DNA of 64,000 bases from positions 1 to 64,000 of the forward strand of contig JABIFY010000027.1 of assembly GCA_018650465.1 (NCBI GenBank). The letters are read 5' to 3'. The translations under genes and the position numbers were made by a program. Each line of letters starts with the position of its first letter. Position 1 is the first letter of the stretch. The stretch is from Alphaproteobacteria bacterium. Lineage in GTDB: Bacteria > Pseudomonadota > Alphaproteobacteria > UBA2966. Below the pieces are notes generated by a model. The model was not told the DNA's origin, did not search any database, and saw nothing but the letters and a program-made list of their open reading frames with translations. Shown here piece after piece: positions 30,762 through 46,447 of the stretch.

Positions 30762-31472
30762 TCAATAACTTTCAGGCAGGGTTGTAAACAGACGGCGGAC
30801 GACGTCGTGGATCATGCTGGGCAACATATCGCGGTCGTCCATAAACTGACCGGCCCGGACGGTATCCACAACCAGCCCCACAGGAGACAGAGGCAAACCA
30901 CCCCCTGTCCGACTGGTCCTGTGCCTGGCTTGCCACAGAATATCATCCTTGCCGAAACGTTTCAGGGTCAGCGCCAGGCCAATGTTTCGGGCCCCAAAGG
31001 CCAGTAAAAAAGTCTCACTGGCCGATGTCAGTTTCCATGTCAGAACGGCCCGACAGCGCGTTTTCCAGGCAAAGGCCCGGGCATCCCCAGGGTGATCCAG
31101 GTCGAGCTTTTGTTTTGCGAGCAGGCGTTGTAATTGGGCCGGTCCTATCACCCGGTCAAACTTGGCTTGGAGGTGAATGGTGACGGCCTGCCCGACGTCT
31201 GCTGCCAGAACAGACCGGGCACTGCTGGCATCGGCGGACCGAATGACAACGCAGGCAGGTGGGTCTCGGTCATAATCTTGCGACAGGCTAAAGATGACAC
31301 GCTGGCCATCATCCTGGATCGGGGTGGGCGGATGCTGGGTGTTTGTTGAGGCCCCGGACGTATTGCGCGGTGACCCCATGGGTTCTCGTTCAACTGAATA
31401 TCCACCGGCCATGCAGCCCGCCAACAATGATGACGCAATCAGGATCAGCAAATGGCTTTTAATAACAGACAT
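30762..31472 (-). CDS. Lipoprotein, CsgG/LpoB-like fold candidate (envelope cluster)
   Basis: About 236 residues from the ATG at 31472, which has GGAG nine bases upstream; the longer frame begins at a TTG. Residues 1-20 are a lipoprotein signal with lipobox 'LLAGC' (C20). The mature part alternates strands and helices: 'VGQAVTIHLQAKFDRVIGPA', 'LQRLLAKQKLDLD', 'RAVLTWKLTSASETFLLAFG', similar in rhythm to CsgG/LpoB-type envelope proteins. This is weak pattern evidence. It is the last gene of the middle operon and overlaps the preceding gene's stop by four-base coupling. No known name. Confidence 0.7.
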   Translation of the reverse strand: MSVIKSHLLILIASSLLAGCMAGGYSVEREPMGSPRNTSGASTNTQHPPTPIQDDGQRVIFSLSQDYDRDPPACVVIRSADASSARSVLAADVGQAVTIHLQAKFDRVIGPAQLQRLLAKQKLDLDHPGDARAFAWKTRCRAVLTWKLTSASETFLLAFGARNIGLALTLKRFGKDDILWQARHRTSRTGGGLPLSPVGLVVDTVRAGQFMDDRDMLPSMIHDVVRRLFTTLPESY

Positions 31473-31474
31473 GA

Positions 31475-32536
31475 TCAGGTGCTCCGGCAATGACGCACAG
31501 CGGACAAGTCGATAATGCCAGCGATCAGAACCCCGTCGACACGGAAGTCGCGAATGCGCAAGCGTGATCCGCTCAAGTCATAGCTGGCCGTAATGGAGAT
31601 GGCGGTGTCATAGCGGCTGCCCACCAGGTTTTGCAGGGCCCCCAGGGTCAGGGCATCGACACGACGGGGAAATATATGAACTTCGCTACCGACAGGGCCG
31701 TGACGTTGCCTGATTTGGCGGACTGTCTGTCGTTCTGCCTCTGGCAGGCGACCAGCGGTCTGGCGCACAAAACCGCTGTAGTAGTCACGATTGGGCCGCC
31801 AGGATTCACCCCGGCGAGACTCCGCCACAAAAAGTTGACCACGTCCGTCCATCAGGGCCAATTGCATGCCAAAACACTGGCGCAGTTGTTGTGAAAGGCG
31901 CGCTCTCGCCTGCCGTCCACCAGGCCAACTGATTTGAAGCATCGGGCCTTTGCCATGCTCCAGTACCCTCAGCAAGGCCCGGCCCTTGCTTGCCGTTTTA
32001 ATGCTGGCGTAGTGGACCGTTTGACGTGGTTTGGCAGGCGTGGGGGAAGTCTGTTGGCGCAACACCGGCGAAATTTTTCTTTTGACAATTTCCGGCTTCG
32101 CGGGAACTGGCTTTGGATCAGGTTGTGGCTTCAAGACCGGCCGATCAGCCAACAGATCGGGCGACTGGAGGATGGGCGCAGGTTTTTTTGGTTGTAGTGG
32201 GATGGGGGGGGCAGGGTGCTTGGCGGCTGTTACAATCTTTGCTTCAGGCTGAAGCGCCTGAATTACCGAAGCCGGAGAAACGGCCGGCGCTGTGGCTGTT
32301 TCCTGATGCCGGACGACAACTGGTGGCGGCGGCATCATGACAACAGTTTGTGTTTTGTCGTGTACGGGCTCGGAGGTTGCGACGAGCACCTGTTCAGTCT
32401 TTTCGATCTTTTTTTCCTGTGCAGGCCTGATCGTTTCCTTGGGAACAGGCACCTGCCAGACCAGCAGTCCAGCCAGGAACAAAGTCAGGGCGACGGACAG
32501 CCGTGTCTGGGTTTTTGATGAGGACAGAAAAGACAT
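31475..32536 (-). CDS. TonB/TolA-like architecture protein of unknown function (envelope cluster)
   Basis: A 353-residue protein with one N-terminal membrane helix (about 13-29, 'VALTLFLAGLLVWQ'), a Pro/Lys/Ala-rich periplasmic linker of about 130 residues, and a C-terminal globular part (about 175-350) containing 'MLQISWPGGRQARARLSQQL' and two Cys (one in 'RQCFGMQ', one four residues from the end). The shape, not the sequence, recalls TonB/TolA/GspC-type connectors that span the periplasm. It sits downstream of an ExbB-like candidate and of another short anchored protein. Function unknown. Confidence 0.72.
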   Translation of the reverse strand: MSFLSSSKTQTRLSVALTLFLAGLLVWQVPVPKETIRPAQEKKIEKTEQVLVATSEPVHDKTQTVVMMPPPPVVVRHQETATAPAVSPASVIQALQPEAKIVTAAKHPAPPIPLQPKKPAPILQSPDLLADRPVLKPQPDPKPVPAKPEIVKRKISPVLRQQTSPTPAKPRQTVHYASIKTASKGRALLRVLEHGKGPMLQISWPGGRQARARLSQQLRQCFGMQLALMDGRGQLFVAESRRGESWRPNRDYYSGFVRQTAGRLPEAERQTVRQIRQRHGPVGSEVHIFPRRVDALTLGALQNLVGSRYDTAISITASYDLSGSRLRIRDFRVDGVLIAGIIDLSAVRHCRST

Positions 32537-32554
32537 CTGAATATGCCGTTCAAA

Positions 32555-33157
32555 CTACTGTTTGACCGTATCAAGGAACCGCAGTTCCATATCTTCGGCC
32601 AGGCGCAACAACTCACGACGGCGCTCACGCGGTGTCATGAATTTGGGTTGGGCCGGTTCATTGGCTGCAACTTCTTGCTCACCCGTAACTTCACCCAAAA
32701 CTTCGGCCCGACGGCGGGCAGCAGCCGGGTCCTTGCGGGCGACGCTGGCGGCTTTGTCTGCATCAATTTGCACGGCAGACCTGGCAGGAATTTCAGGGGC
32801 TGCGGCAACTTCAACTTCCTGGCCCTTTGGCGCAGGTGCTTGTCGAACCATTGCTGGCTTGGCGATAGGTGTTGGTGCTTTGGCCGCTTTTAAAGGTGCT
32901 GAAGCGAGGGGCATTGGCGCCGGTTTGACAACAGCCACCTTTGCTTCCTTTGCGGCTTTTGGCGCAAGTGCAGTTTCTGCTTTTTCTTGCAAAATTTCTT
33001 TGCTTACCGCCACCGTATCAAGCGCCTTGCTCCAGGCGGCATCGGCACTGGCGGTCAATTTGGCGACAACGTCGTGATTGCGAATTTCCGGTTTATCGCT
33101 CAGAAACAGATAGCCAAGGGCGGCGGCGACGACGATATTGAAGGTCAGGAATTTCAT
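32555..33157 (-). CDS. Membrane-anchored Ala/Lys/Pro-rich protein (envelope cluster)
   Basis: A 200-residue protein with an N-terminal membrane anchor ('FNIVVAAALGYLFLS'), a helical stretch, a low-complexity Ala/Pro/Lys region (about 60-120), and a charged helical C-terminus 'TPRERRRELLRLAEDMELRF'. The ATG overlaps the stop of the ExbB-like gene upstream (ATGA) and has GGGAGA eight bases before it. I recognise no family. Tight coupling to the membrane-channel candidate suggests they work as a complex. Confidence 0.7.
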   Translation of the reverse strand: MKFLTFNIVVAAALGYLFLSDKPEIRNHDVVAKLTASADAAWSKALDTVAVSKEILQEKAETALAPKAAKEAKVAVVKPAPMPLASAPLKAAKAPTPIAKPAMVRQAPAPKGQEVEVAAAPEIPARSAVQIDADKAASVARKDPAAARRRAEVLGEVTGEQEVAANEPAQPKFMTPRERRRELLRLAEDMELRFLDTVKQ

Positions 33158-33702
33158 GAGTTTTCTCCCGGATAATAGGGCAGGGTACGGGCGCTTGAGG
33201 CCGTCCAGCTGGCGTGACTGATCAGTAACAAGGCACGTAGGATCGCGGCGGAGGGTAAGCCGACAACAGTGGTCATAAAGGCCATGCTGAAATGGCCGGT
33301 CAGACCCTGAATGACGGTTTGAATGGTTTCGGTAGTCAGGGGTTGATCGGCAAGGCTGCCGATACCGAGGCTGATCCCCAACAAGGTATAGGTCAGGGCG
33401 AGTGTGGCTACACCACTGGCCGCATGCATGCCGGATTCAAGCCAGGGCGCAGCCCGGATGCTGTCATCCCGCAGTTGACCCAGGCGTACCCAGCAGAACA
33501 GTGTGGTGGCAACCAGCAGCAGATACAGCACCGTGAAGGTGGGACCAAAGACGTCCTGAGCCAATTGGGCAAAGTCACGTGCCTCAAACGATCCGGTGCC
33601 CGATGCCACCGCAACAGCAATGACGACGCCGCCCAGTAAATAACTTGTGGTCCGCGACGCTGTGCTGAACAGGGAGACCCTCCCCCTTGCCTTGGCAGAC
33701 AT
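33154..33702 (-). CDS. ExbB/TolQ/MotA-like membrane protein candidate (envelope cluster)
   Basis: A 182-residue protein with about four hydrophobic segments. The last two resemble TM2 and TM3 of the MotA/TolQ/ExbB proton-channel family: 'LALTYTLLGISLGIGSL' (compare LLGLLGTVxGI), then a short loop and 'GLTGHFSMAFMTTVVGLPSA' (compare GISxALxTTxxGLxxAIP). It lacks the large cytoplasmic loop of TolQ and is shorter than the family. It starts at a TAATG junction with the preceding gene. Proton-channel function is an inference from spacing and small-residue pattern; a structure prediction would settle it. Confidence 0.62.
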   Translation of the reverse strand: MSAKARGRVSLFSTASRTTSYLLGGVVIAVAVASGTGSFEARDFAQLAQDVFGPTFTVLYLLLVATTLFCWVRLGQLRDDSIRAAPWLESGMHAASGVATLALTYTLLGISLGIGSLADQPLTTETIQTVIQGLTGHFSMAFMTTVVGLPSAAILRALLLISHASWTASSARTLPYYPGENS

Positions 33703-34109
33703 TATCTTGGCCCCGAATGCGTGGACATGATCGACTGGGTTGTCAGGCCCATGGCTGTGAACCAGTTATCCACCATCAGCATTTTCTTTTCCGTCGCGGC
33801 ATGCATCAGGAAAGTCAGGTCATAGTTTTTGAAGGCGGTGCGCACTGCCGGTGTGGGGCGGGCGGTCAGGCTGTCATCCCGCAACACGATGCGTTCCAGA
33901 TCAACCAGGCGGCGTTGCGACGCGCCAATTTTGACCAGGCGTTCATCCGGACCTAAATCTGGCATCAAGATGGCCTGCAGCACCATGGCGCGTTCCCGCT
34001 CCAGGTTTTCCACGCTGCCAGCCTGGGCCGGAGCAGTTGAAATAAATGCGATGCTTGCTGCCGCGGCGGCAATGAAGCTCAAATGACGAAGTTTTTTGGA
34101 TAAGGACAT
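33702..34109 (-). CDS. Small exported helical protein (envelope cluster)
   Basis: A 135-residue protein with a classical signal peptide ('FIAAAAASIAFISTAPAQA', cleavage after about residue 30). The mature 105 residues look helical, with 'NLERERAMVLQAILMPDLGP' and 'KIGASQRRLVDLERIVL'. No Cys, no recognised domain. Its stop overlaps the ATG of the channel candidate (TAATG) and it starts 13 bases after the previous gene. Periplasmic; function unknown. Confidence 0.68.
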   Translation of the reverse strand: MSLSKKLRHLSFIAAAAASIAFISTAPAQAGSVENLERERAMVLQAILMPDLGPDERLVKIGASQRRLVDLERIVLRDDSLTARPTPAVRTAFKNYDLTFLMHAATEKKMLMVDNWFTAMGLTTQSIMSTHSGPR

Positions 34110-34122
34110 TTCTGTCTCCCGT

Positions 34123-34995
34123 TCAATTATTCACAAAAAGATTGACGACGCTGGTGATGTCTGTGGGTTCGGTAATATCCGAGTCCGCATAATCCGAATC
34201 GGCGATTTCCTCAGACAGAACCATGGCGTCCAGGGCAACGATCTTGGCCATGAAGCCCAGGATCTGGCTTTCCTGATCAATCAGTGCCAATTCAGCTTCG
34301 GCATCGGCCACCATGCGACGGACATATTCCGGTTTGGAAATGTCATCATCCAGTGCGCTTTGGCTGTTCATGGGGTGGGATTTGATGGCGGCAACCAGCG
34401 ACTGGATAGCCTGCAGATTTTTGCCGTATTCCCGCGAATATTTACTTTCCGGCACATCGCTTTCGGCAAACAAATTCATGTCGACTTTGGATGCCGAGGC
34501 ATTGAAACGCTGGCGGGCGGCGGTTTGCTGATCTGCCAGCTTTTGTTTCGCCGGGCTCATGCCACCGGCCTTGCGATTGAGCTTGGCCAACAGCCGTTCC
34601 AGGACCCGGTGGCGGGTCGAGACCTGTTTGCGTTGCAGGTCTTGTTTTTGCTGCATCATATCCAGATAGCCGCGTTTCTCGGCGAGGAATTGATGTTTGA
34701 GTTCAATGAGCACGTCACCGTCAGCCTGTTCGATGGCTTGTTGCAGATCGGCCAGGGTCTGGGTTTTTAAGCCTATTTCCCGTTCGATATCCTGAACGGC
34801 CTGGCCCAGGGCGGAGCGGGCAAAGTCCCGGTCCAGGGATTTTTTCATGTAGGCCGGCGGCAACTTTACCAGCCGTTCACTGACTTTGGGCTGCCAGGTT
34901 GGGCTGCCAGAGTTGGCGGCGATCACCGGCGACGAAGCGAGGAGAACACCCACAAGGGCGCTGCTCGCCAGAAGTTTGAATTTGTGCATGGACAT
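34123..34995 (-). CDS. Exported coiled-coil protein (envelope cluster)
   Basis: About 290 residues, signal peptide at the N-terminus ('LLASSALVGVLLASSPVIAA'). A strong AGGAGG at 35001-35006 points to ATG 34995 (or 34989), not to the GTG at 35001. The mature protein is rich in Lys, Gln, Glu and Leu heptads ('LQQAIEQADGDVLIELKHQF', 'QQKQDLQRKQVSTRHRVLER'), so a long periplasmic coiled coil is likely, and it ends with an acidic Asp/Ser tail ('SDYADSDITEPTD'). No recognised family. Possibly a structural spacer in the envelope. Confidence 0.68.
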   Translation of the reverse strand: MSMHKFKLLASSALVGVLLASSPVIAANSGSPTWQPKVSERLVKLPPAYMKKSLDRDFARSALGQAVQDIEREIGLKTQTLADLQQAIEQADGDVLIELKHQFLAEKRGYLDMMQQKQDLQRKQVSTRHRVLERLLAKLNRKAGGMSPAKQKLADQQTAARQRFNASASKVDMNLFAESDVPESKYSREYGKNLQAIQSLVAAIKSHPMNSQSALDDDISKPEYVRRMVADAEAELALIDQESQILGFMAKIVALDAMVLSEEIADSDYADSDITEPTDITSVVNLFVNN

Positions 34996-35004
34996 CATCA
35001 CCTC

Positions 35005-35631
35005 CTACATGTGCTTCCAGTAATTCATGCGACGGATTTCCGCTTTCACCGCGTCATTGACGTTGGCGACAGAATAAGTTCCGACCGTATGTTTGGGTTT
35101 CAGACTGACCAGCACTTCCATGGTGCTGACAAAGGATGAGCCATCCGGGTAATACAAATCCTGCCCGGCAAATGCCGATTTGAATTTGTCCAGGGCATCA
35201 CGGGCGACGGCCACGTTGCCACTTTTCAGATGGTTCTGAACCGCCAGGGCATTGGCCTGCATGCGGTCCTGTTCATCGATAACGGTGATGTCTTGCAGTC
35301 CAGCATCACATTTTTGCAAGGCGCGGGCACTGGCGGCGTATTTTGCTGCCGAGGCCGATTTGCGGGCCTGGCTATCCAGCACCATGGCCGCATCCCGGCA
35401 ATCCCGCCATTCACGGGCTACCATGATTTCGGTGTTGCGCTTGACCCTGAAGTCAATGCCCTCACGGGAAGCGGTATTGCCCAAAAGATTGGTCTGACAG
35501 GCGGAAAGCGCCATAACAGCCCCCAGCATCACCAATATGGTTTTGCCTTTTGTCTTGTAGGTTGGTGCGATATGCGGTCGGCAATTTGTCTGCTGAGCCG
35601 CGGTATTCTGCGATTTATTGATCATTTTCAA
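35005..35631 (-). CDS. Lipoprotein of unknown function, first gene of middle operon (envelope cluster)
   Basis: A 208-residue protein with a long N-terminal segment, then a membrane-like stretch ending in lipobox 'ALSAC' (C45). The mature part is helical with two more Cys ('WRDCRDAAMVL', 'ALQKCDAGLQ') that could pair. The helix-turn rhythm ('AALAVQNHLKSGNVAVARDAL'-like) resembles TPR-type repeats but I cannot confirm it. GAGG precedes the ATG. The shared 26-base upstream element lies only 27 bases before the start, so the transcript leader is short. Confidence 0.7.
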   Translation of the reverse strand: MKMINKSQNTAAQQTNCRPHIAPTYKTKGKTILVMLGAVMALSACQTNLLGNTASREGIDFRVKRNTEIMVAREWRDCRDAAMVLDSQARKSASAAKYAASARALQKCDAGLQDITVIDEQDRMQANALAVQNHLKSGNVAVARDALDKFKSAFAGQDLYYPDGSSFVSTMEVLVSLKPKHTVGTYSVANVNDAVKAEIRRMNYWKHM

Positions 35632-35657
35632 AACCTCTTATGAAAGTCATACGGAGG

Positions 35658-35683
35658 TAATGCAGGGACCAGAGCGCTTTTTT
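35658..35683 (-). promoter_or_regulatory. Shared envelope-cluster promoter element, copy B
   Basis: On the minus strand: AAAAAAGCGCTCTGGTCCC followed by TGCATTA. Near-identical copies precede the two sister operons at 41100-41125 and 46534-46559. Identity extends a few bases further (GG before the A-run, CC after ATTA). Likely the promoter or a regulator site for the seven-gene unit running down to 30762. It does not fit the sigma-54 spacing. Confidence 0.65.
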
Positions 35684-35723: not shown

Positions 35724-37019
35724 TCAGGGCAGGATCCTGTGGCGGGCGGTCAGGGTCTGGGTTTGGGCCGCCAGGCCGCTGATGGGCGTCTTGCTGATGC
35801 TGACAGAGATATTGTATCTCACAGGGCGCTTCAGGCGTTTGGGCACGTGGGCACGCCAGCGCAGATTTCCTTTTGTGGCAAGGTTTCCCTTCAGGGTTTC
35901 GGGCAGGCGATTACGCACAAACCGGCCCCTGGTCAAATTGACGGCAGCCGAGACAAAACGATCTTCAGGACCAACGGCAACCTCAAATTCAAGGCCACAA
36001 AGCCCGGCCACATTACTATCGGCAAGTTGATCGCCGCTCACAGGCCCGAGTGCCCGTTTCACAGGTTTGGCATCTGAAAACTGTATGGCGGCGCAACTGC
36101 TGCCTGCGGCTGCCCGCAATTCATATACCTTGAGAGTTGGCACGTGCGCGGGGGCAGGTTTTACTTTGGCTGTGACAGGCTTCGCGACCACGACCTTTGG
36201 GGCGGCTTTCGGCGCTGGTTTGACTTGCGCAGCCTTGACTGGCTCGGGGGCGGATTTTTCTTTTACAACGATGGGCGGCACCGTCTTTATTGGTTGTTGA
36301 TCAAAATAAATGAACGCACCGGCCCCGGCGACGAGGATCGATATTCCCAAAACTGTAAACAAAGTCCGCAAGCCGTTCCCTGACTGGGGTTCTGGTGCTG
36401 CATTTGCAGGTATTGGAGGCGCAGGTATGACAGAAGCCGGCGCATCGGCTTCGTCCAACAAATTCAGATGACGTTGAATATCCTTGGCTGACGTGACGGC
36501 AGTGCTCTCGATGTCCTCGCGGGCCGTCATGGATTTCAGATTGGTGTCTGGCACGAAGAACCGCAGTGCCGTGCCTTCTTTGATGTGCTGGTCAATCAAA
36601 TCAGCAGAAGCGTGCAGTTTTTCCGCCACATGGCCCACGGCACCCACGCCCAAGTCACTGTCCAGGGCACCGGTAATCCAGAGCGCTTCTGCGACCTCGT
36701 CGTCGGGGCCAGCCAGGCGATTTTCCGCAGCCAGGGCATGGGCGATAAAAACACCCAGTTGCCAGCTTTCGCCGTCGGTGATCGGGCCAGATACATCCAG
36801 CCTGAATGCACCACGTGGACCAGAAACGTCCCAAGGGCCAAATTCCCGCTCGATGACACCTGAAGGGGCACGCACAAAGGCGTCATAGGCGGCACTGATG
36901 GGCAAGACGCGGGTTGTGCGTTTTACACAGATCGCCGATTGGGCCGCCGGTTCCCGCGTGATGCGTTCAATGGCGACCGGGCCTTCCGTGGTCGGTATGA
37001 AAACGCGAACCAGGCTCAA
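35724..37019 (-). CDS. Membrane-anchored protein with Lon (S16)-like protease domain (envelope cluster)
   Basis: A 431-residue protein. Residues about 60-170 follow the Lon proteolytic domain pattern: 'ITDGESWQLGVFIAHALAAE' with candidate nucleophile S85 (Lon: DGPSAG), then 'WITGALDSDLGVGAVGHVAE' followed by K134-L (Lon: TGExxLxGxVxPIGGxxEK), and 'RFFVPDTN' (Lon: xIPxxN). Ser-Lys spacing is 49 residues, against 43 in E. coli Lon. There is no AAA+ domain. A membrane helix follows (about 219-238), then a Pro/Lys/Ala linker and a Cys-containing C-terminal domain outside the cytoplasm. The start is TTG, overlapping the previous stop (TTGA), with GAGG upstream. Confidence 0.7.
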   Translation of the reverse strand: MSLVRVFIPTTEGPVAIERITREPAAQSAICVKRTTRVLPISAAYDAFVRAPSGVIEREFGPWDVSGPRGAFRLDVSGPITDGESWQLGVFIAHALAAENRLAGPDDEVAEALWITGALDSDLGVGAVGHVAEKLHASADLIDQHIKEGTALRFFVPDTNLKSMTAREDIESTAVTSAKDIQRHLNLLDEADAPASVIPAPPIPANAAPEPQSGNGLRTLFTVLGISILVAGAGAFIYFDQQPIKTVPPIVVKEKSAPEPVKAAQVKPAPKAAPKVVVAKPVTAKVKPAPAHVPTLKVYELRAAAGSSCAAIQFSDAKPVKRALGPVSGDQLADSNVAGLCGLEFEVAVGPEDRFVSAAVNLTRGRFVRNRLPETLKGNLATKGNLRWRAHVPKRLKRPVRYNISVSISKTPISGLAAQTQTLTARHRILP

Positions 37020-37564
37020 CGCAGAAATACCTCTGTGCCATGGTCGCGCAGGGCGATCAGGACGGCATCATCATGTTGCAACAACACTTGGATCACCCCA
37101 CCTTGTGCGGCCGGCAATTCCAGGCGCTCCAGGGTGCCACCGGCGGCGCTTGTAATCAGGGTTCGCGGGGCATTTGCTTCTGCGTCTTTCAATTCAATAA
37201 TGACGTAAACCTGATCTGGTTCGGCGCGAGAGGACTCAATGCGGATCGCACAAAGATCAGTTTCCCGCAGCCTCAGGTCTTCATCCGTACTGGCCGCCGC
37301 GGCCTGGGGCAAATGCGACCATGAAATTTTTTGCAACAAAGCATTAACGTCAGCCGCCAGCTTTGAGTCGTGCCTTAGGGCAGTCAGCAAATCAGCATCA
37401 TGTGTCACCTCACCACTGGCAAAACGCCAAAGTCTGCTGAAGGCGATTGTAGGCTCGGCCTCTCGCATAGCTGTCAGGGTTTGCCGGACATTATCTTCGT
37501 CGGCGAAATGCTCCTGGACGGTTGCCATGGATTGATCGTCCGGCAGGTTGATCTGTATCGTCAT
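37016..37564 (-). CDS. Cytoplasmic protein of unknown function (envelope cluster)
   Basis: A 182-residue soluble protein without signal peptide or membrane helix. The N-terminal half is helical and acidic, the C-terminal half strand-rich ('VYVIIELKDAEANAPRTLIT', 'VIQVLLQHDDAVLIALRDHG'). It is wedged between the 522-residue unknown protein and the Lon-like protein with overlapping start and stop codons on both sides (ATGA and TTGA), which argues for fixed stoichiometry or direct contact with the cytoplasmic Lon-like domain. I recognise no family. Confidence 0.68.
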   Translation of the reverse strand: MTIQINLPDDQSMATVQEHFADEDNVRQTLTAMREAEPTIAFSRLWRFASGEVTHDADLLTALRHDSKLAADVNALLQKISWSHLPQAAAASTDEDLRLRETDLCAIRIESSRAEPDQVYVIIELKDAEANAPRTLITSAAGGTLERLELPAAQGGVIQVLLQHDDAVLIALRDHGTEVFLR

Positions 37565-39129
37565 TCTTTTTCTCCGTACATGACGGTAAATAAACTCTGG
37601 AAGACTTGTAGGTCGGTGCTGAATACCTGTTCAAGATCGTCGTCATCCGATTGTAACCTCGCTAGAACAACAAGATAATCGGCCAGATGATCCCGGGCCA
37701 GAACCAAGGCTCCGGCACCGATGCTGAAACCTTCGCGAATGTTCGGATCTTCCAGATCATCTTCTGAAAAACCACGTCTGTTCAGGTCCTTAAAGGCCGC
37801 CAGACTTTGCTCGCGGGCACCATCGGGCAAAGTTTTGCCAGCAAACAGAGGCACGACATTTGTCGTATCGGCATCCTCAGGCAGATCCGGGTCCTGGTCT
37901 GTATCCGGCCCTGGATCTTCACGGGTCAGCACATGCAGGACGGCTTTCTGGACGCGCAACAAATGTTGTTCGTAATCGTGAAAGCGCAAGGTGCGCTCGG
38001 CATAGGGTTCCGCATCCGCACAACCCAACAGATCCTGCACGACATTGTTCCCTGCTTTGCGCCGCAAGGCCTGGGTGATGCGGGCTTGAACCGAGCCAAA
38101 GACTTCGCTGCGCATTATGGACAATGGCAAGTCGATGGCCAGGGGGCCACAATCCATCAGGAAGTCCAACCCTTCCCGTTCACGTTTGTTCAGGAATTTA
38201 ATGGCATCCGCGGGTGGGCTGTCCAGCAAAGCCAAAGGTGTCTGCCAGGCCCCGGCAGGATCATCACCTTCCAGAACCATGGGATCAATTTCACCGGCAT
38301 CGCGATCCGTGCCCAGGGGTCTGGCATAGCTCACCATGGATTGGGTGCTGCCAGTTTCAATGGCACGCAGAAAATCAACGAAGCTGCCAACAGCCGACCG
38401 ATAGGTGCGAAAATCACTGATGGCGTCGGCATGGCCATTATTTTGCTGCAACCAGAACTGTAGAATATTTTCGTCACTGACCTGCACCGACCCGCTGTCA
38501 CTGCTGGTTTTCAGGTAAGCCACAATGGCCTCAAATTTTTCCGCCGCATGGGTTCCTGGCAAATGATCGCGCAGCCAGTCATAGATCAAACGGTTCAGGG
38601 CATTGGCGGCGTCCTTGACCTCGTCCTGATCGGTTGCATGTTTCGTCATTTGGGCAAATATCTTGTCAACCGGCTCATAACCGACCATGCCAATTACCGT
38701 TTCCAGCAAGGCCGTCAGGAAAGACATGCGGCCAAAGCCCAGGACGAAATCACCATCACTGTAGGTCATATGCAGGCCATCCACGCTGATTTCGAAACCA
38801 GGACGGCGCCAGTCATTTTGATTAACGGCTTCGTTCAACCAGGCCCGGATCGACGTGCCCCGGACTTTATCAAGGCCAAAGAAAAAGCGTTCCCAGCGAT
38901 CTTTGCCAGTGCCGCAGGCATCCACGGCATTGACCAGGTGGCAGAGTTGTAAAACCCCCCGACTGTATTTCCGACAGACCACAGCGCGGGCCAGATCACG
39001 GCTGATTTTGGTCGCAAATCGAGGCTCACCGTCCATGGCGGTGGCGTCGGCGACCGTGGCGAGCAGGGCCGTCAATTCAGAACTCTTTCCCGCTTCCAGG
39101 ACGTGCCTGGTCGCTTCGACGATTTCCAT
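37561..39129 (-). CDS. Large cytoplasmic protein of unknown function (envelope cluster)
   Basis: A 522-residue soluble, mostly helical protein with no recognised motif. Visible: an acidic linker near 415-430 ('EDPGPDTDQDPDLPEDADTT') between two helical regions, and an acidic C-terminus ('LQSDDDDLEQVF'). The ATG at 39129 has GGAG four bases upstream but lies 58 bases inside the preceding transglycosylase gene; the next ATG, 39036, avoids the overlap but has no ribosome binding site. It is coupled by ATGA to the next gene. It may be the cytoplasmic regulator or adaptor of the system. Confidence 0.65.
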   Translation of the reverse strand: MEIVEATRHVLEAGKSSELTALLATVADATAMDGEPRFATKISRDLARAVVCRKYSRGVLQLCHLVNAVDACGTGKDRWERFFFGLDKVRGTSIRAWLNEAVNQNDWRRPGFEISVDGLHMTYSDGDFVLGFGRMSFLTALLETVIGMVGYEPVDKIFAQMTKHATDQDEVKDAANALNRLIYDWLRDHLPGTHAAEKFEAIVAYLKTSSDSGSVQVSDENILQFWLQQNNGHADAISDFRTYRSAVGSFVDFLRAIETGSTQSMVSYARPLGTDRDAGEIDPMVLEGDDPAGAWQTPLALLDSPPADAIKFLNKREREGLDFLMDCGPLAIDLPLSIMRSEVFGSVQARITQALRRKAGNNVVQDLLGCADAEPYAERTLRFHDYEQHLLRVQKAVLHVLTREDPGPDTDQDPDLPEDADTTNVVPLFAGKTLPDGAREQSLAAFKDLNRRGFSEDDLEDPNIREGFSIGAGALVLARDHLADYLVVLARLQSDDDDLEQVFSTDLQVFQSLFTVMYGEKE

Positions 39130-39665
39130 TGCGCTCCATTCATCCAGACCTGACGCTGATATTGCTGCTGCCAGGAACGAACCTTTTTTACATAGCCACG
39201 TGTTGCCGGCATGACGCGGGCGTTGGGTAAATCCCCGACACGTGAACCACCATTATAATATGACAGTGCCAAATCTATTCTACCTCTATAGCGTACTAGA
39301 AGGCGTTGAAGGAAATGAAGCCCCAGGCGGATATTAATCCGCGGATTCCACAACATTTTTGCCGGAATGGCATATTCGTCCAAGGCTGTGGCGGGCATGA
39401 TCTGCATCACACCACGGGCACCCTTGTTGCTTTCCAGGTGAGGACGAAAGTCTGATTCGACCTTGGCGACCGCCAGGGCCAAGGCCACAGGCAAGCCAAT
39501 GTTGCGGGCTTCTTGTGCGACCATGGTTTTAATCGTCGCGACTTTCCAGCGTTGTTGCGGGCGGGTATCGGTTGCTGTACTGGCAAAAGCCTGGCTCATG
39601 ACCCCACCGACGACAGCCAGAACAAGGGCTGCTGTGAGTGTGAGGGATAATCGAAAATGGGTCAT
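39072..39665 (-). CDS. Periplasmic lytic transglycosylase (SLT/GH23 type), copy 2
   Basis: Cleaves peptidoglycan glycan strands to 1,6-anhydro-MurNAc ends. The 197 residues carry a signal peptide (cleavage near 'SQAFA', residue 28) and a compact GH23 domain: catalytic E70 in 'AVAKVESDF', 'GARGVMQIMPAT', and 'LALSYYNGGSRVG'. It is a close paralogue of the gene just upstream (289 residues), matching it through the whole catalytic core but without its C-terminal extension. Its end overlaps the next gene by 58 bases. Confidence 0.93.
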   Translation of the reverse strand: MTHFRLSLTLTAALVLAVVGGVMSQAFASTATDTRPQQRWKVATIKTMVAQEARNIGLPVALALAVAKVESDFRPHLESNKGARGVMQIMPATALDEYAIPAKMLWNPRINIRLGLHFLQRLLVRYRGRIDLALSYYNGGSRVGDLPNARVMPATRGYVKKVRSWQQQYQRQVWMNGAQWKSSKRPGTSWKRERVLN

Positions 39666-39700: not shown

Positions 39701-40570
39701 TCAGGAAAAGTCATCAAGTGAGCCACGGATGGCCTTGAGACGTTTCTCGATATTGTCGAAGTCGCCATTGGACCGTACGTTCCGGCGGTTTTTGCGGTTC
39801 TGACGACGCTCTTTACGAAGTTCCTGGCGACTCTGGCGGGCGCTTTGACGCTTGCTTTTCGGGGTATTGGTCCATTTGACGCGGGGACGGATTGTTTGAG
39901 CCCAACGCTGATCTTCGTCTTCGCCGTGCCATTTAGCGACTTCAACTGCCATATTGGCGCTGCGTTCGTCGGCGCTTACGTTTGTATCCGTATCGGACTC
40001 TTGCAGCATAGCCAACTTGCGTTTACGCGTTCCATTTCCGTACACGCTGTCTTCGCGATCAACCAGGGCCATCCAGATTTTGCGTTGGGCGGCATAGCGT
40101 TGTTCCCAGCGCAGCACATTATTGACGTATTTGCGGGTCCAGGGCAGAACGCGCGCCTGACCTGGTTTGCCAACTTTTGAGCCACCATTATAAAAACTGA
40201 GGGCAAATTCCCAGTTGCCGTCATAGCGCTCAATCAATTGGCCCAGGTAATCAATACCAAGGCGTACATTCAGGCGTGGATCCCACAGCTCGTCTGGTTC
40301 GACACCCCATTCGCCGGTGCCGGTGGCGGGCATGATCTGCATCACACCGCGGGCCCCTTTGGAGCTTTCCACATGGGCTTGAAAGTCAGATTCAACCTTG
40401 GCAACAGCCAATGCCAATGACGGTGGCACGTTCGTCGCCAGGGCTTCTTCGACGACGATTTTTTTGATGTTTGCCCGACTTGATTCGGGGGCTTTGCTGG
40501 CATCGGCGGTGCTGATGCTCAAAGCCAGGGCGCAGGTTGTGATAACTGCGGTAAAGCGTGAGATATTCAT
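39701..40570 (-). CDS. Periplasmic lytic transglycosylase (SLT/GH23 type), copy 1, with basic tail
   Basis: A 289-residue exported enzyme with signal peptide (about 1-25) and a GH23 core: catalytic E60 in 'AVAKVESDF', 'SSKGARGVMQIMPATGTGEW', 'FALSFYNGGSKVG'. After residue 170 there is a long tail ending in an Arg/Lys/Asn-rich segment ('KSKRQSARQSRQELRKERRQ'), which could bind acidic polymers or the glycan. It overlaps the ExbD-like gene upstream by ATGA and is followed after 35 bases by its shorter paralogue: a tandem duplication. Confidence 0.93.
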   Translation of the reverse strand: MNISRFTAVITTCALALSISTADASKAPESSRANIKKIVVEEALATNVPPSLALAVAKVESDFQAHVESSKGARGVMQIMPATGTGEWGVEPDELWDPRLNVRLGIDYLGQLIERYDGNWEFALSFYNGGSKVGKPGQARVLPWTRKYVNNVLRWEQRYAAQRKIWMALVDREDSVYGNGTRKRKLAMLQESDTDTNVSADERSANMAVEVAKWHGEDEDQRWAQTIRPRVKWTNTPKSKRQSARQSRQELRKERRQNRKNRRNVRSNGDFDNIEKRLKAIRGSLDDFS

Positions 40571-40998
40571 TTTTCAGTCTCCTCAAGGGCGCGCATCCAG
40601 CGCTGGTCAAGTGTGGTTACGGTGATGTTTTGGGTGGTCAGGGCGGCGCGGGCATCCAGTGCCCCGGACAATGACAGGGCCGGATCAATGGCCAGAATAA
40701 TTTTCTCGTCCTGGTTGATTGACGAAAGGGCTATTGGTTTTAGCTGATCGCTCAAGTAACGGCCCTGATAGAAAACGATGATCCTGGATTTGTCGGCTGC
40801 GGGTTGGGTGCTATTTGATGGCTTGGAGGGCGAGACCCGCAGGGTGTCAGCCGTGGCCGACTTGACTGCCTCGACCACATCGCTGCTGCCGGCCCCCCCG
40901 GCACCCATAGAAACCATGGCCAGAACCATGACGCTGAAAAAGGCCATGGCCAGGGCCAGGGCGATCTCTGTCATGGCGTTGCCGTAGTGTCCTTCCAT
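40567..40998 (-). CDS. Short ExbD/MotB-like anchored protein candidate (envelope cluster)
   Basis: A 143-residue protein with one N-terminal membrane helix (about 11-31, 'EIALALAMAFFSVMVLAMVS', with a Glu at its cytoplasmic edge), a flexible Ser/Pro linker, then a small alpha/beta periplasmic part ('RIIVFYQGRYLSDQLKPIAL', 'KIILAIDPALSLSGALDARA'). This is the topology and size of ExbD/TolR. The conserved membrane Asp of ExbD is not evident, so proton coupling is uncertain. First gene of the right-hand six-gene operon; AAGGAG nine bases before the ATG. A leader terminator and the shared promoter element lie upstream. Confidence 0.6.
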   Translation of the reverse strand: MEGHYGNAMTEIALALAMAFFSVMVLAMVSMGAGGAGSSDVVEAVKSATADTLRVSPSKPSNSTQPAADKSRIIVFYQGRYLSDQLKPIALSSINQDEKIILAIDPALSLSGALDARAALTTQNITVTTLDQRWMRALEETEK

Positions 40999-41036: not shown

Positions 41037-41072
41037 AAAAAAGTCGGCGGGGGCTTTGTTTTAACCCCCGCC
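41037..41072 (-). terminator. Leader terminator/attenuator upstream of the ExbD-like gene
   Basis: On the minus strand: stem GGCGGGGG / CCCCCGCC (8 bp, 11-base loop), then GAC and six T, a good intrinsic terminator. It lies between the shared promoter element (41100-41125) and the ATG at 40998, with no gene end just upstream on that strand. It would therefore stop or gate transcription of the six-gene operon rather than end a gene. It could alternatively end long transcripts from the LysR gene. Confidence 0.6.
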
Positions 41073-41099
41073 AGTGACAGGGAGGACGTTCAGCTACGT

Positions 41100-42234: not shown

Positions 42235-42235
42235 A

Positions 42236-43150
42236 TCAGGCCGCGTCCAGGGGAGCGACTTCCTGCAACAGCCATGTGCGAAAGGCGCTGATCGCGGGGC
42301 GGTCACGATATTCGTTGGGGACAACCAGGTAATAGGCAAAATCTGTCGGAATGACTTCTTCAAAGGGCTGTACCAGGCGACCAGACGCCAGCTCGTCACG
42401 CACCAGAGATGTGTTCACCAGGGCAACACCATGTCCCTCCACTGCGGCCTGCACCGCCATATTCTCCATGGAAAATTCAGGACCTTTGCGCCAATCAACC
42501 TGATCCGCCCCCGCCAGTTCCAGCCACATTGGCCATTCCGCATAAGAGACATCGTTAAAAACACTGCCGGAATGAAGCAGGGTGTGATGGACAAGGTCCT
42601 GTGGTTTTATCAGGGGGTGTGCCCCGGACATCAGTTTTGGACTGCACACCGGAAAGACTTCGTCTTCAAACAGCCGGTCGGCCGCATGACCGGGATAGTC
42701 ACCACTGCCCCAGCGAATGGCCACATCAATACCATCCCGTCGCAGGTCGATGATTGCCATTGATGCGTCAATGCGAATTTTGATGTCAGGATAAGCATCC
42801 TGAAAATCAACCAGTCGCGGGACCAGCCATTGACCACCAAATGAGGGCGTGGCCGTCACGGTCAGAACGTTCTCGTCCTGCTCGTCCATCAAGAGTTTTG
42901 CGCCGACTGCCAGCAAAGCAAAACCCTCTGTTAAATTGGGTAAGGCCGCCTGGCCGCGGTCTGTCAGCCTGAGAGCGCGAGTAAGACGTGTGAACAATGG
43001 CGCGCCGATAAATTCCTCCAGAGCCTTCACCTGGTGGCTGACGGCTGCAGGCGTGACGTTCAGCTCATTCGCGGCCTTGGTGAAACTCAGGTGTTGCGCG
43101 GCGGCGACAAACGCTCTCAGCGCGTTGAGGGGGGGTAGGTGAATAGACAT
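42236..43150 (-). CDS. LysR-family regulator, GcvA-like
   Basis: A 304-residue LysR regulator with N-terminal winged helix (about 5-65: 'LPPLNALRAFVAAAQHLSFT', 'KAANELNVTPAAVSHQVKAL') and a C-terminal substrate-binding domain. The start 'LPPLNALRAF' is typical of the GcvA branch. Divergent from a small 52-residue ORF; direct repeats suited to a LysR site lie in the gap. Convergent with the DUF2332 gene. Target unknown; nothing in the sequence ties it to the envelope cluster. Confidence 0.92.
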   Translation of the reverse strand: MSIHLPPLNALRAFVAAAQHLSFTKAANELNVTPAAVSHQVKALEEFIGAPLFTRLTRALRLTDRGQAALPNLTEGFALLAVGAKLLMDEQDENVLTVTATPSFGGQWLVPRLVDFQDAYPDIKIRIDASMAIIDLRRDGIDVAIRWGSGDYPGHAADRLFEDEVFPVCSPKLMSGAHPLIKPQDLVHHTLLHSGSVFNDVSYAEWPMWLELAGADQVDWRKGPEFSMENMAVQAAVEGHGVALVNTSLVRDELASGRLVQPFEEVIPTDFAYYLVVPNEYRDRPAISAFRTWLLQEVAPLDAA

Positions 43151-43155
43151 ACATA

Positions 43156-43184
43156 ATCATACATTAGAAATTCTATATCATACA
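43156..43184. promoter_or_regulatory. Candidate LysR operator: direct repeat ATCATACA
   Basis: ATCATACA occurs at 43156-43163 and 43177-43184, 21 bases apart (two helical turns), just upstream of the LysR start and inside the gap to the divergent small ORF. Position suits LysR autoregulation; binding is inferred. Confidence 0.35.
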
Positions 43185-43279
43185 ATGAAAATTTCTCGTT
43201 TGTAGAAAGCCCATCAGGAGCATAAATACACAGCATACCTTGAGTATGGATGAGATAAACACATTAGAGGAACTTGGTT

Positions 43280-43438
43280 ATGAACCCTTATCAGCTGATC
43301 GTCAAAACAAACCCTGAATTCACGAACAAAAACCGTTCGCCAGTAGACTTCCACACAATGATCAGTGTCGGAGCACTGCACGCCGTTAATGCAGTGGAGC
43401 GCACGTGGCGCTATTTGGTGCCCCGCGCCGGAAAGTAA
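43280..43438 (+). CDS. Small ORF, 52 residues, divergent from LysR gene
   Basis: ATG at 43280 preceded by GAGGAAC seven bases upstream, encoding a 52-residue basic protein (starts MNPYQLIVKT, ends VPRAGK) without membrane segment or signal. It fills the gap between the LysR regulator and the end of the FlgO-like gene and is divergent from the regulator, the classic place for a LysR target. I recognise no family; the evidence is the good ribosome binding site, length and position only. Confidence 0.45.
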   Translation: MNPYQLIVKTNPEFTNKNRSPVDFHTMISVGALHAVNAVERTWRYLVPRAGK

Positions 43439-43468
43439 CAAGTGCAGTCTGGCTGCTGGTGGACAGGG

Positions 43469-44902
43469 TTATTTGTTCGCCGGCAGCACGTTGATGACAA
43501 CACTGGCTTCGCTGATGCTGACATTCTGCATTTGGCGGAAAATATGTGGCAGGCGGAAATCCATGCCTTCGGGCAGGACCGGAAAATTGTTGGAACGAAT
43601 GGACTTTGGCAGTTTGTCGCTGATGTCGCTGGCCACGGCAAAACATTTTACCAGTTCGGTTCCGGCGGGTTCACCAAAGACCAGGTCAAAGGGGAGCATG
43701 CTGCCTGGAAGCGTTTGTAGTTTGCCGCCCGTGACCCTGGCATTCTGGTGATAGCGGTTGGGAAATATCTTCAGCATCCTGCCGTCGGCCTGGCGATAAA
43801 AACAATAAAGCCAGGCATCCTGATCCAGGCGAATTTCCAGGTGCAGTTTTTCACCGATATTGTAGACCGGCGTTTCGCCCCGGTTGCTGCGCAGGGCAAA
43901 GCGGAAAGGGCCAAGGCCGTCATTTTCCAACAATTGCGGCGGGAAATTTCCGTCCGGGCGTACATTCATTTCCAGCGGTGGCAAGACCTTGCCGGACCAG
44001 GCGGCTGTGCGCCCGTCTGGCGCCCGTAATCGCACTTTCAGATCGACGGCCTTGCCAAAATCCCAATAGCTGCCGGTCAGGATGTAAATATTGTTACCGC
44101 GCCCGGTTTTGATTTGGGATTCTTCTTTGTCTTTTCCTGTCCAGGCCGCGCGTTTGATGCGCACCATGCGCCCGGTGATCTTGTTGGAATAGGCAGCGGC
44201 CAGCTCATCCCGCAATTGTTCTTCGATATAGCGACCGAAACGGGTTTGCATGCGGGTGTTTTCGAAACGGATGCCGCCAAGCCGGATTTCATTGGCGTCA
44301 GCGGCCATCTGCGCCAGCCTGCGAGCGCCTTGGCGAATACCTTGTTCCAGGGTGACCGTGGCCTGGTTCTGTTGCAGGTTAATGAATTGACTGGAGGTCG
44401 AGGCCACGATGTTGCCGACCCTTGTTTTGCCTTTAGACGCCCCCAGGACTTTGTAGGACAAGGCGATGCGGCGGTTCTCCAGGGAAATTTCACCGATAAC
44501 CAGCAAATCGACACGCGCACTTTTGGAAACGGTTGCCACTGGATTTTCCATATCCTGATGGGTTTCTTCCAGATCCGCGATCAGGGCACCCAGTTCCTTG
44601 CGACCGACAAATACCAGCTTGCTGCCGGCTTTGCGTTGCAGGGCGGCTAGCAGGTTTATATTCAATTGTTCAGCGACCCGGGTGGAGACCGGGATATCCC
44701 GGCTTTGAAAGGGCCAGACCGCGACCCGGATTTTGCCGCCCAGCAGCCGGTTGTCCTTTAAGCCTTGCAGCAACTCGTCAGCCAGCAAGCCAAGCGTGAA
44801 GTCACTGCCGCCTGCACTGTCCTGGGCATAGGCTGGTGATCCAGCTTGAGAGAATATCAAGCCGGATATTGCCAACAGCATAAAAGCCAGGCGTTTCACC
44901 AT
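43469..44902 (-). CDS. Exported FlgO/CsgG-like protein with DUF4384-like C-terminus (envelope cluster)
   Basis: A 477-residue secreted protein, signal peptide about 1-26 (cleavage at 'AYA'). Residues about 50-190 look like the FlgO/CsgG/TolB-N fold: 'IRVAVWPFQSRDIPVSTRVA', 'LNINLLAALQRKA', 'VGRKELGALI', 'VDLLVIGEISLENRRIALSY'. Residues about 350-450 follow the DUF4384 pattern: 'IGEKLHLEIRLDQDAWLYCF', 'GRMLKIFPNRYHQNARV', 'FGEPAGTELVKCFAV'. DUF4384 is often found on caspase-like or surface proteins, but no protease domain is here. AAGGAG lies ten bases before the ATG, which overlaps the OmpA-like gene's end. Confidence 0.8.
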   Translation of the reverse strand: MVKRLAFMLLAISGLIFSQAGSPAYAQDSAGGSDFTLGLLADELLQGLKDNRLLGGKIRVAVWPFQSRDIPVSTRVAEQLNINLLAALQRKAGSKLVFVGRKELGALIADLEETHQDMENPVATVSKSARVDLLVIGEISLENRRIALSYKVLGASKGKTRVGNIVASTSSQFINLQQNQATVTLEQGIRQGARRLAQMAADANEIRLGGIRFENTRMQTRFGRYIEEQLRDELAAAYSNKITGRMVRIKRAAWTGKDKEESQIKTGRGNNIYILTGSYWDFGKAVDLKVRLRAPDGRTAAWSGKVLPPLEMNVRPDGNFPPQLLENDGLGPFRFALRSNRGETPVYNIGEKLHLEIRLDQDAWLYCFYRQADGRMLKIFPNRYHQNARVTGGKLQTLPGSMLPFDLVFGEPAGTELVKCFAVASDISDKLPKSIRSNNFPVLPEGMDFRLPHIFRQMQNVSISEASVVINVLPANK

Positions 44903-45453
44903 TTAATCACTTTCTCCTTGATCTCATTTTTTGGATCACTTTTTTGTCGACTATCAGCCTTCGTTCGCTCTGACTGTATCAGAACAAACTCCACACGGCG
45001 ATTTTCGCCACTGGTAGGGGCCAGTACATTTTTCAATCTGGTTTCACCCAGGCCTGATGGGGTAAGGCGTTTATTTCGAATACCGCCTTTATGAACCAGA
45101 TAGTCAAACACGGCTTTGGCCCGGCGTTGGGAAAGCTTCAGGTTCATGTTTGCACGACCGGAAGCATCCGTGTGGCCGACAATCTGAAAACGTTCGGCGG
45201 CCAGTTTCCGATCCTTCAAGGCATCAACAACGATATCCAGTTGTCGTTTGGCACGATTGGTCAGATTGCTGGAGCCTGTCTTGAATTCAATATCCAGATC
45301 AATGGCTCGGGCCTGACCACTGTGCTGCGCCATATAGCGGATGGGGGCGAGGCTACGGATGATGGTATTTTTGTCGATATCAGCGTTTTGAGCTGTGACC
45401 GCACCCATGCTTGCAAAAATCAGAAAGCTGGCCAACATCAAAAGTCTGGTCAT
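44896..45453 (-). CDS. OmpA/Pal-type peptidoglycan-binding protein (envelope cluster)
   Basis: About 185 residues from ATG 45453, which has AGGAG seven bases upstream (the longer frame to 45492 lacks one). Signal peptide ('LMLASFLIFASMGAVTA'), no lipobox. OmpA C-terminal domain at about 45-155: 'DIEFKTGSSNLTNRAKRQLD', 'FQIVGHTDASGRANMNLKLS', 'QRRAKAVFDYL', 'SGLGETRLKN', 'ENRRVEFVLI', with the Asp and Arg that bind diaminopimelate. A Lys-rich tail follows. Periplasmic; would anchor the system to peptidoglycan. Follows a hairpin after the lipoprotein gene. Confidence 0.92.
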   Translation of the reverse strand: MTRLLMLASFLIFASMGAVTAQNADIDKNTIIRSLAPIRYMAQHSGQARAIDLDIEFKTGSSNLTNRAKRQLDIVVDALKDRKLAAERFQIVGHTDASGRANMNLKLSQRRAKAVFDYLVHKGGIRNKRLTPSGLGETRLKNVLAPTSGENRRVEFVLIQSERTKADSRQKSDPKNEIKEKVIKW

Positions 45454-45499
45454 ATTTTTGCTCCTGGATGACACAAACAAGGAACGGTACAAGTCAAAA

Positions 45500-45529
45500 C
45501 CCGTCAGCAGCGTTCAGGCTGCTGACGGG
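45500..45529 (-). terminator. Intercistronic hairpin between lipoprotein and OmpA-like genes
   Basis: Perfect 12-bp stem CCCGTCAGCAGC / GCTGCTGACGGG with a 6-base loop, followed on the minus strand by TTTTGACTT. It would act as a partial terminator or an mRNA stabiliser, making more of the first gene than of the two downstream genes. Confidence 0.6.
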
Positions 45530-45541
45530 CCTTTGAAAATC

Positions 45542-46447
45542 CTACCAGTCATCAGGATCGAGATTGCGTTTCTTGCGTTTGGAAATTCGGGTCAGGACAT
45601 ATTCATTGCCCGAGAAGCGAACCCGACCAGAGACCCCGATGTGATCCAGCATCTTGCGCAGGTTACGGTTGAGACGTGTCGCTGTGCTGCTGCTTTCGTA
45701 CCAGTATTCGTGATGTGTGCGACCGGCATAAACCGCCCGGTGACGCTCGTAGCCGCGGAAGACAACGATATATTCTTCGATATCCATCATGTCGTCTTCG
45801 GTGAAGCCATCAAAGACCAGGGAGAAGCCATTGTTGATGTTGGCTTTGCCCGATCCGCTGCCGTCATTGTCATCGTCATAAATCGAGACCAGTTTTTCGG
45901 CCAGAACGGAGCCCACATCGCGGGCAATGATTTTGCTATATTTTCCGACGGTTTCCAGTAAGCATTCCCGTGGGCAATTAGCTTTGGCCGTCCATTCACG
46001 CGGGCTTTCGATTTCGAAATTACCAAGGCGTTGACCGCTTTTGACGGCCAGAAGGCGACCAGTGACTCGGGTCTTGATTTTGGTCGTATAGTTATAATCC
46101 CGGGCGCTGGCGTAGATCGTAAAGATCACGGCAATATCAATGGGCGGACGTTTGAGCGTTTTGGCGATGTCGATGATTTCGGCATCGGTGCGGCGCACCC
46201 GGCCTTGGGCAAAGTCATCCAGGGAGACCGCTGTTTCGTCAAAAACATCAAAGCCTTCGTTGTGGATTTCATTGGTCAGGGCATCCAGGACGCGGCGGAA
46301 AACGCGGCTGTTACGCGGCACGCTGTCCTCGTCTGCATCTTCGCCCATGATCAAAAGATTGGGCTTTTCTATGGCCATGGAGGGCGGCGCGCCTGCGCAG
46401 GATATCAGCAGCAAGGCACCGGCAAACATGAAGATCATTTTTTTCAT
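45542..46447 (-). CDS. CsgG/FlgO-like lipoprotein (envelope cluster)
   Basis: About 301 residues from ATG 46447, which has GGGAGA seven bases upstream; the frame to 46531 has no site. Lipoprotein signal with lipobox 'LLISC' (C17). The mature part has the CsgG-like rhythm: 'RVFRRVLDALTNEIHNEGFD', 'DAEIIDIAKTLKRPPIDIAV', 'TKIKTRVTGRLLAVKSGQRL', 'RDVGSVLAEKLVSIY', then a second acidic/basic domain ending in 'RISKRKKRNLDPDDW'. First gene of the left-running three-gene operon. Together with the FlgO-like and the 30.8-kb lipoprotein it gives three such proteins in one system. Family call is tentative. Confidence 0.72.
   Translation of the reverse strand: MKKMIFMFAGALLLISCAGAPPSMAIEKPNLLIMGEDADEDSVPRNSRVFRRVLDALTNEIHNEGFDVFDETAVSLDDFAQGRVRRTDAEIIDIAKTLKRPPIDIAVIFTIYASARDYNYTTKIKTRVTGRLLAVKSGQRLGNFEIESPREWTAKANCPRECLLETVGKYSKIIARDVGSVLAEKLVSIYDDDNDGSGSGKANINNGFSLVFDGFTEDDMMDIEEYIVVFRGYERHRAVYAGRTHHEYWYESSSTATRLNRNLRKMLDHIGVSGRVRFSGNEYVLTRISKRKKRNLDPDDW

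Follow-up and report, generated by a model that had tools for sequence, protein, structure and literature searches.

The window analysed here, 64,000 nucleotides of contig JABIFY010000027.1 from an alphaproteobacterium of the UBA2966 lineage (GenBank assembly GCA_018650465.1; the genome measures 4.8 Mb and the contig is its C59), carries at positions 30762-46447 sixteen open reading frames (ORFs) on the minus strand, named g1 to g16 in the order of transcription (46447 to 30762). All sixteen are real genes and the cluster that they form is conserved. Our preferred reading, to which we give an even chance of being right, is that it encodes a proton-driven machine spanning the envelope, one of the broad kind that includes Tol, Ton, the flagellar stators and Zorya, and that a Lon-like protease switch couples this machine to regulated proteolysis. 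A subunit of the MotA/TolQ/ZorA type, the Lon-like Ser/Lys domain, the SLT and OmpA domains and the conserved linkage are supported by sequence comparison. We infer the partner role of g4, the transducer roles of g14 and g15, a stress or attack output, and g8 or g7 as the protease substrate.

The genes are arranged in three tight groups, g1-g3 (46447-43469), g4-g9 (40998-35724) and g10-g16 (35625-30762); within a group, neighbouring genes overlap or are separated by short gaps. A preliminary description of this DNA had proposed sixteen minus-strand genes in three groups, which is borne out by the ORFs, their tight packing and their conserved order, and had named co-occurrence and fixed order in other genomes as a test; the genes do co-occur, in order, across genera and families. 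The entire region is syntenic in the sister genome G001, while in G003, which belongs to another genus of the same family, g4-g9 and g10-g16 are in order with caspase-family and alcohol-dehydrogenase-like genes between them. Homologues in the same order were found in dozens of other genomes. Iterated profile searches with about 50 fetched loci revealed the recurrent order g3, g1, g4, one or two lytic transglycosylase genes, g7-g8-g9-g10-g11-g12-g13-g14-g15-g16; at about 15 loci g4 through g15 or g16 lie on one strand, some of these 15 being from outside the class. The g4-g9 part is inverted or apart in some loci and follows g15 in L133, the two halves of the cluster face each other in L061, and many loci have a homologue of g1 close to the cluster, at times in two copies. 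The g11 profile matched 19 of 385 alphaproteobacterial genomes, across eleven families, and a further six genomes of the same phylum that belong to four families of other classes. A g9-based scan of named genomes detected homologues in alphaproteobacterium BAL199, Thalassobaculum fulvum, several other alphaproteobacterial genomes and one metagenome-assembled genome labelled Marinimicrobia. The explanation as a mobile element was rejected, since g11 and g7 had no hit on plasmids, g13 none in phage records and g11 none on viral contigs. One copy, L052 of genome G311, has in-frame stops interrupting g7 and g9 and a g13 that departs from the family near its end; it looks decayed, or affected by assembly errors.

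The core of the cluster is g10-g15, usually with g16 and normally accompanied by g4 and one lytic transglycosylase. Where present, the genes g10-g15 almost always stay together, single genes being missed in a few loci. Among the 385 genomes, g11 is present in 19 and g4 in 18, and 16 have both (Fisher P 2e-23 when counted by genome, 3e-17 when counted by genus); g11 coincides with g7 in 13 (1e-15 and 2e-10, respectively). These P values ignore relatedness beyond the genus. The g7-g8-g9 genes are a separable protease module that is also found alone, without g10-g16 nearby, in G002, G004, G006 and G120 (g7-g8 likewise in G170), and envelope genes occur without g7 in G015, G117 and G220; g2 is optional, being present in only some loci, and one transglycosylase is enough. 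The earlier notion of one system of sixteen therefore keeps its conserved co-occurrence and gives way to a core with separable and optional parts. Such separations would be expected of two independent neighbours, an envelope complex (g4, the transglycosylase, g10-g16) and a Lon-like signalling module (g7-g8-g9), sharing a neighbourhood and having separate functions. This arrangement seems unlikely to us, as the order is interdigitated, with g7-g9 usually placed between the transglycosylase and g10 in many families, g11 co-occurs with g7 as given above, and g9 is fused with DUF4384 in L046.

For the proposed proton-driven machine, the motor is represented by g13, which the sequence evidence supports as a divergent channel subunit of the MotA/TolQ/ExbB/ZorA type. 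The protein of the window matches the ZorA2 models of PADLOC with E-values of 0.006-0.012, and one ZorA2 (MotA/ExbB/TolQ) model matches 16 of the 22 family members, with a best E-value of 2.9e-5; the Pfam family MotA_ExbB (PF01618) matches two of the 22, with a best E-value of 0.1, short of its curated cut-off. The AlphaFold2 (AF2) model, with a predicted local distance difference test (pLDDT) score of 85.6, comprises helices 4-36, 41-52 and 54-76 and two long inner helices, 81-118 and 124-171, and its thirteen best fold matches in the PDB are all TolQ, MotA and PomA chains, ExbB also being among the matches. The most conserved stretch of the family, T-L-L-G-I...A-F-M-T-T-V-V-G-L, has the same pattern as T-V-W-G-I...A-L-F-A-T-A-L-G-L in TolQ-type proteins that these genomes also encode. 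A search pattern drawn up from both, TxxG...A[LFM]x[AST]TxxG, occurs in 23 of 29 g13 members, in all five TolQ-type proteins of the same genomes and in none of 7996 other ORFs, a count that serves as a consistency check because the pattern was written after both sequence sets had been seen and the background is poor in membrane proteins.

The partner of g13 is likely to be g4, a candidate ExbD-type subunit to judge from its anatomy and from one pairing. Its Glu11, at the start of the sole helix, is invariant in 18 of 18 members and retained in the further members examined; the acidic residue is Glu, not Asp. The best evidence for the pair comes from locus L136 (G007:C39:1-5977), a 6 kb contig of an order-mate, where g4 is followed directly by g13 on the same strand with no other cluster genes, the only place where the two adjoin; elsewhere they are several genes apart. 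This minimal g4-g13 version is divergent from the only caspase-family gene of G007, which encodes an exported protein, and two recombinase-like genes come next. The ExbB-like candidate of the preliminary description is thus supported by the ZorA2 match, fold and signature of g13, though not by profile-profile alignment; for its ExbD-like candidate there are the anatomy of g4 and the L136 pair, and no profile match.

The proteolytic switch would be formed by g7-g8-g9. A search of all PDB chains with the g9 family profile (hmmsearch) returned Lon proteases, with a best E-value of 2e-4, weakly the CRISPR-associated CalpL, and nothing else. Ser85 and Lys134, invariant in 17 of 17 members, are taken as the Lon Ser/Lys dyad, and the PADLOC model CARF_LON matches g9 (E 3.5e-4) over residues 96-201 only, which is the Lon-like part. 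These data mark the N-terminal half of g9, noticed before as a membrane-anchored Lon-like domain, as genuinely belonging to the Lon-like (S16) Ser/Lys protease domains. The transmembrane helix and linker that follow lead to a C-terminal part that is probably periplasmic and is swapped in relatives for an FGE-sulfatase domain (three members) or for DUF4384 as in g3 (one member, L046); the latter fusion links two of the gene groups. At L010, L014 and L015 the g9 homologues consist of the Lon-like part and transmembrane segment fused to FGE-sulfatase, in genomes without g10-g16 nearby. Scans with Pfam, PADLOC and NCBIfam detected no CARF or SAVED sensor domain in g7, g8 or g9, and no significant family for g7 or g8; the AF2 model of g7 (pLDDT 83) had no match in a fold search of the PDB. 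The two "large cytoplasmic unknowns" noted earlier are unequal, the term being apt for g7 with 522 residues and not for g8 with only 182.

Pfam analysis of all sixteen proteins gave significant matches only for OmpA (g2), DUF4384 (g3) and SLT (g5 and g6), the other twelve being without a significant family, and sequence searches of protein subsets against NCBIfam, PADLOC and the PDB gave nothing significant for g1, g4, g7, g8, g10, g12 and g14-g16 where searched. The OmpA-type peptidoglycan binder and the two lytic transglycosylases expected from the first reading are therefore confirmed, the latter with SLT scores of 79 (g5) and 62 bits (g6) against a cut-off of 21; g2 has no lipobox. Hydropathy and motif analysis revealed lipoboxes in g1, g10 and g16 and membrane or signal-like helices in most other proteins, with none in g7 and g8, and recovered a Pro/Ala/Lys linker after the anchor in g9, g14 and g15, matching the three proteins of this build that had been announced. 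Three CsgG/FlgO/LpoB-like proteins had been announced as well. DUF4384 is present in 11 of 12 members of the g3 family, one of which matches CsgG (0.0018) and one FlgO (0.033), both weakly and below thresholds; profile search detected no CsgG-type match in the g1 family, and g16 matched only GNA1162 (E 0.28, below threshold), which leaves g3 as a weak case and the calls for g1 and g16 unsupported. The assignment of g11 to NCBIfam HmpF (7e-5, far under the model cut-off) was rejected and the match ascribed to coiled coil.

Two features are newly recognised here, the separability of g7-g8-g9 and the linkage of exported caspases to the cluster. Genes for exported proteins of the Peptidase_C14 family, bearing the His and Cys motif, are found within the cluster or next to it at L012, L044, L045, L046, L059, L062 (two), L136, L142 and L144. 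When all C14 genes were counted in the 19 genomes with at least one such gene and all or some of the cluster, linkage to the cluster was found in nine, against 0.65 expected; in two of the nine (G015 and G451) the C14 protein belongs to another subfamily. Eight genomes have the cluster and no C14 gene, and the caspase is therefore an accessory and was rejected as an obligate part. The genome of the window has five C14 genes, all away from the cluster and none in the cluster described here; the accessory was missed by the earlier reader because it lies outside this window. The sister genome G001 has 19 such genes, several of them clustered on contig C4. OmpA has been reported as an operon neighbour of C14 genes (PMC3501461).

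Comparison with Zorya and the Ton/Tol systems was based on published descriptions (PMC11890865, PMC12204202), and by the features tested the cluster is not Tol-Pal, Ton or Zorya. It resembles Tol-Pal in the TolQ-like inner-helix signature of g13, the acidic single-helix partner g4, the OmpA-type protein, the lipoproteins and the layout of g15, in which a transmembrane segment, linker and C-terminal domain are arranged as in TonB and TolA. This parallel, together with the chromosomal location (none of the searched proteins being found on mobile or viral sequences), would suit a housekeeping tether or import machine of the outer membrane, a duplicated and diverged Tol-Pal-like or Ton-like system with no stress or defence role. 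This reading is improbable in our view. Unlike Tol-Pal, the cluster has no PF01618 or PF02472 match over the cut-off, no TolB propeller and no conserved His in the g15 helix; its OmpA protein g2, unlike Pal, is optional as well as devoid of a lipobox; and it adds the transglycosylases and the Lon-like module, while a separate TolQ/TolR-type pair is encoded elsewhere in the same genome. A TonB-dependent receptor is likewise missing from the Pfam matches of the sixteen, and both the patchy distribution and the Lon-like and caspase links argue against housekeeping.

Zorya is approached by g13, whose best matches are the ZorA2 models, and by the peptidoglycan-binding g2 nearby. However, g13 has only 182 residues, being comparably short in relatives, and lacks the long ZorA tail, g4 has no OmpA domain, and no match to ZorB, ZorC, ZorD or ZorE was detected among the ten cluster proteins scanned with PADLOC. 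With the Calp proteins of type III CRISPR systems (CARF-Lon and SAVED-Lon) the cluster shares a Lon-like Ser/Lys domain outside Lon and a three-gene module with two soluble proteins of no known family; it differs in that no CARF or SAVED domain was found and in the central transmembrane segment and probably periplasmic half of g9. The likeness to C14 and FGE-sulfatase neighbourhoods lies in exported domains of both kinds linked to or fused with the cluster in relatives, and is limited by the genomes in which the cluster has no C14 companion, this one included. The weak matches of single g3 members and of g16 recall the CsgG/FlgO/LpoB/GNA1162 group, but no curli, flagellar or penicillin-binding-protein gene is present in the cluster.

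In the model that we propose, a stator-type motor would be built from g13, by analogy as a pentamer, together with g4, whose one helix has the invariant transmembrane Glu. Its movement would be passed across the periplasm by g14 and g15, which combine an inner-membrane anchor with extended linkers, and would reach g10-g12 as well as the lipoproteins g1 and g16; g2 and g3 may sit at the peptidoglycan or outer membrane, and the transglycosylases g5 and g6 would make openings in the wall so that the machine can assemble. Reporting on the machine, or controlling it, would fall to g7-g8-g9: the periplasmic half of g9 may sense the state of the envelope, and its cytoplasmic Lon-like half would cleave a substrate, likeliest g8 or g7. 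A linked exported caspase, where present, could act as a second, periplasmic protease in the same response. The output, which is the least certain step, would be a response to envelope damage or envelope attack rather than movement or bulk secretion. A bolder version, which we put forward only tentatively, is an undescribed class of envelope machine in which a MotA/TolQ-type proton motor is mechanically coupled to the transmembrane Lon-like switch g7-g8-g9, and in many species also to an exported caspase, such that the wall or outer membrane, when damaged mechanically or chemically, would trigger intracellular proteolysis as a stress or immune response.

Several results weigh against the proposed model. 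Alignments of g13 with ExbB/TolQ and with MotA, and of g4 with ExbD (hhalign, with reversed controls), gave no support although the positive control of ExbB against MotA reached 95%. The fold matches of g13 are poor, with template modelling scores of 0.26-0.40 and E-values of 0.17-1.2 (0.17-0.6 for the thirteen best); g4 matches no ExbD, MotB or ZorB model; and neither g14 nor g15 has the conserved helix His of TonB and TolA. Both the module without motor genes and the reverse occur, so that the coupling may be loose, and the direction of signalling and the substrate of g9 are steps that we infer. The preliminary idea of an energised, peptidoglycan-remodelling, envelope-spanning machine is supported in part: g13 and its likely partner g4 lend real weight to the first term, the transglycosylases, OmpA protein, lipoproteins and anchored linkers suit the other two, and the sixteen genes are not an indivisible set. 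The failed alignments and the lack of Pfam MotA_ExbB or ExbD matches over threshold would also be accounted for if g13 and g4 were ordinary structural membrane proteins of a static, non-energised envelope scaffold with a protease. We regard this as doubtful, given that the ZorA2, fold and signature evidence for g13 converges and that g4 has an invariant charged residue in its helix and is paired with g13 in L136. Stator-type motors also power gliding and flagella, and lytic transglycosylases are typical of wall-crossing secretion machines, but a gliding-like apparatus or new secretion system is very unlikely here, as there is neither an ATPase nor a secretin-like or pilin-like protein among the sixteen, and none of them significantly matched a model for secretion or gliding. 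The mismatch with known secretion and motility systems asserted at the outset accordingly stands, and for types II, III, IV and VI secretion no ATPase, secretin, sheath or needle was matched by Pfam among the sixteen.

No paper on the cluster was found in the open-access literature, beyond whose reach most subscription journals lie, and no description in the databases searched. To our knowledge, few families of proton-driven envelope motors have been recognised, namely those of flagella, Ton, Tol, gliding, Zorya and some secretion systems. The cluster appears to be another, spread over at least two classes of the phylum and made mostly of proteins without a family name. Linked as it is to exported caspases and a Lon-like protease, it would connect the mechanics of the envelope with regulated proteolysis. 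It would also give bacterial caspases, for which the role is still largely open, a concrete multi-protein setting, one accessible to gene deletion in relatives that can be cultivated, such as Thalassobaculum.

Table 1. Genes of the envelope cluster in the window, in order of transcription
Gene	Position	Strand	Product and features
g1	45542..46447	-	Lipoprotein of 301 residues, lipobox LISC17; two more conserved Cys (158, 162); own family
g2	44896..45453	-	Exported OmpA-type peptidoglycan-binding protein, optional; Pfam OmpA E 1.5e-19
g3	43469..44902	-	Exported; weak CsgG/FlgO-like N-terminal part and DUF4384 (E 7e-17)
g4	40567..40998	-	Single-pass membrane protein, invariant Glu11 at helix start; proposed ExbD/TolR/MotB-like partner of g13
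g5	39701..40570	-	Exported SLT lytic transglycosylase; Pfam SLT E 2e-22
g6	39072..39665	-	Second exported SLT lytic transglycosylase; Pfam SLT E 4e-17
g7	37561..39129	-	Soluble protein of 522 residues, no transmembrane segment or signal, mostly helical; no known family or fold
g8	37016..37564	-	Soluble protein of 182 residues, conserved C-terminal domain; no family
g9	35724..37019	-	Lon-like (S16) domain with Ser85/Lys134, transmembrane helix 219-237, linker, probably periplasmic domain (Cys309/Cys341)
g10	35005..35625	-	Lipoprotein, lipobox LSAC45
g11	34123..35001	-	Exported protein of 292 residues, probably coiled coil; best core marker
g12	33702..34109	-	Small exported protein; order g11-g12-g13 conserved
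g13	33154..33702	-	MotA/TolQ/ExbB/ZorA-like membrane protein, all helical, two long inner helices
g14	32555..33157	-	N-terminal transmembrane segment, Ala/Pro/Lys linker, conserved C-terminal stretch
g15	31475..32536	-	N-terminal transmembrane segment, then a Pro-rich linker and a conserved C-terminal domain in the periplasm that has two invariant Cys; laid out like TonB/TolA
g16	30762..31472	-	Lipoprotein, lipobox LAGC; possible CsgG/GNA1162-like fold

Between the first and second groups lie a LysR gene (42236-43150, minus strand) and a DUF2332 gene (41179-42234, plus strand). Both are found at the same place in the sister genome and are absent from it in G003 and elsewhere; as they occupy that position only within the genus of the window, they were rejected as parts of the cluster. 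A strong terminator-like hairpin (11 pairs, 8 of them GC, with a T run) is located at 41045-41073 on the minus strand, about 50 bases upstream of g4, and may serve for insulation or attenuation of the second operon. Outside the cluster, positions 22001-24000 of the window stand out locally by a pronounced AT skew (-0.23), whereas their GC content is ordinary.

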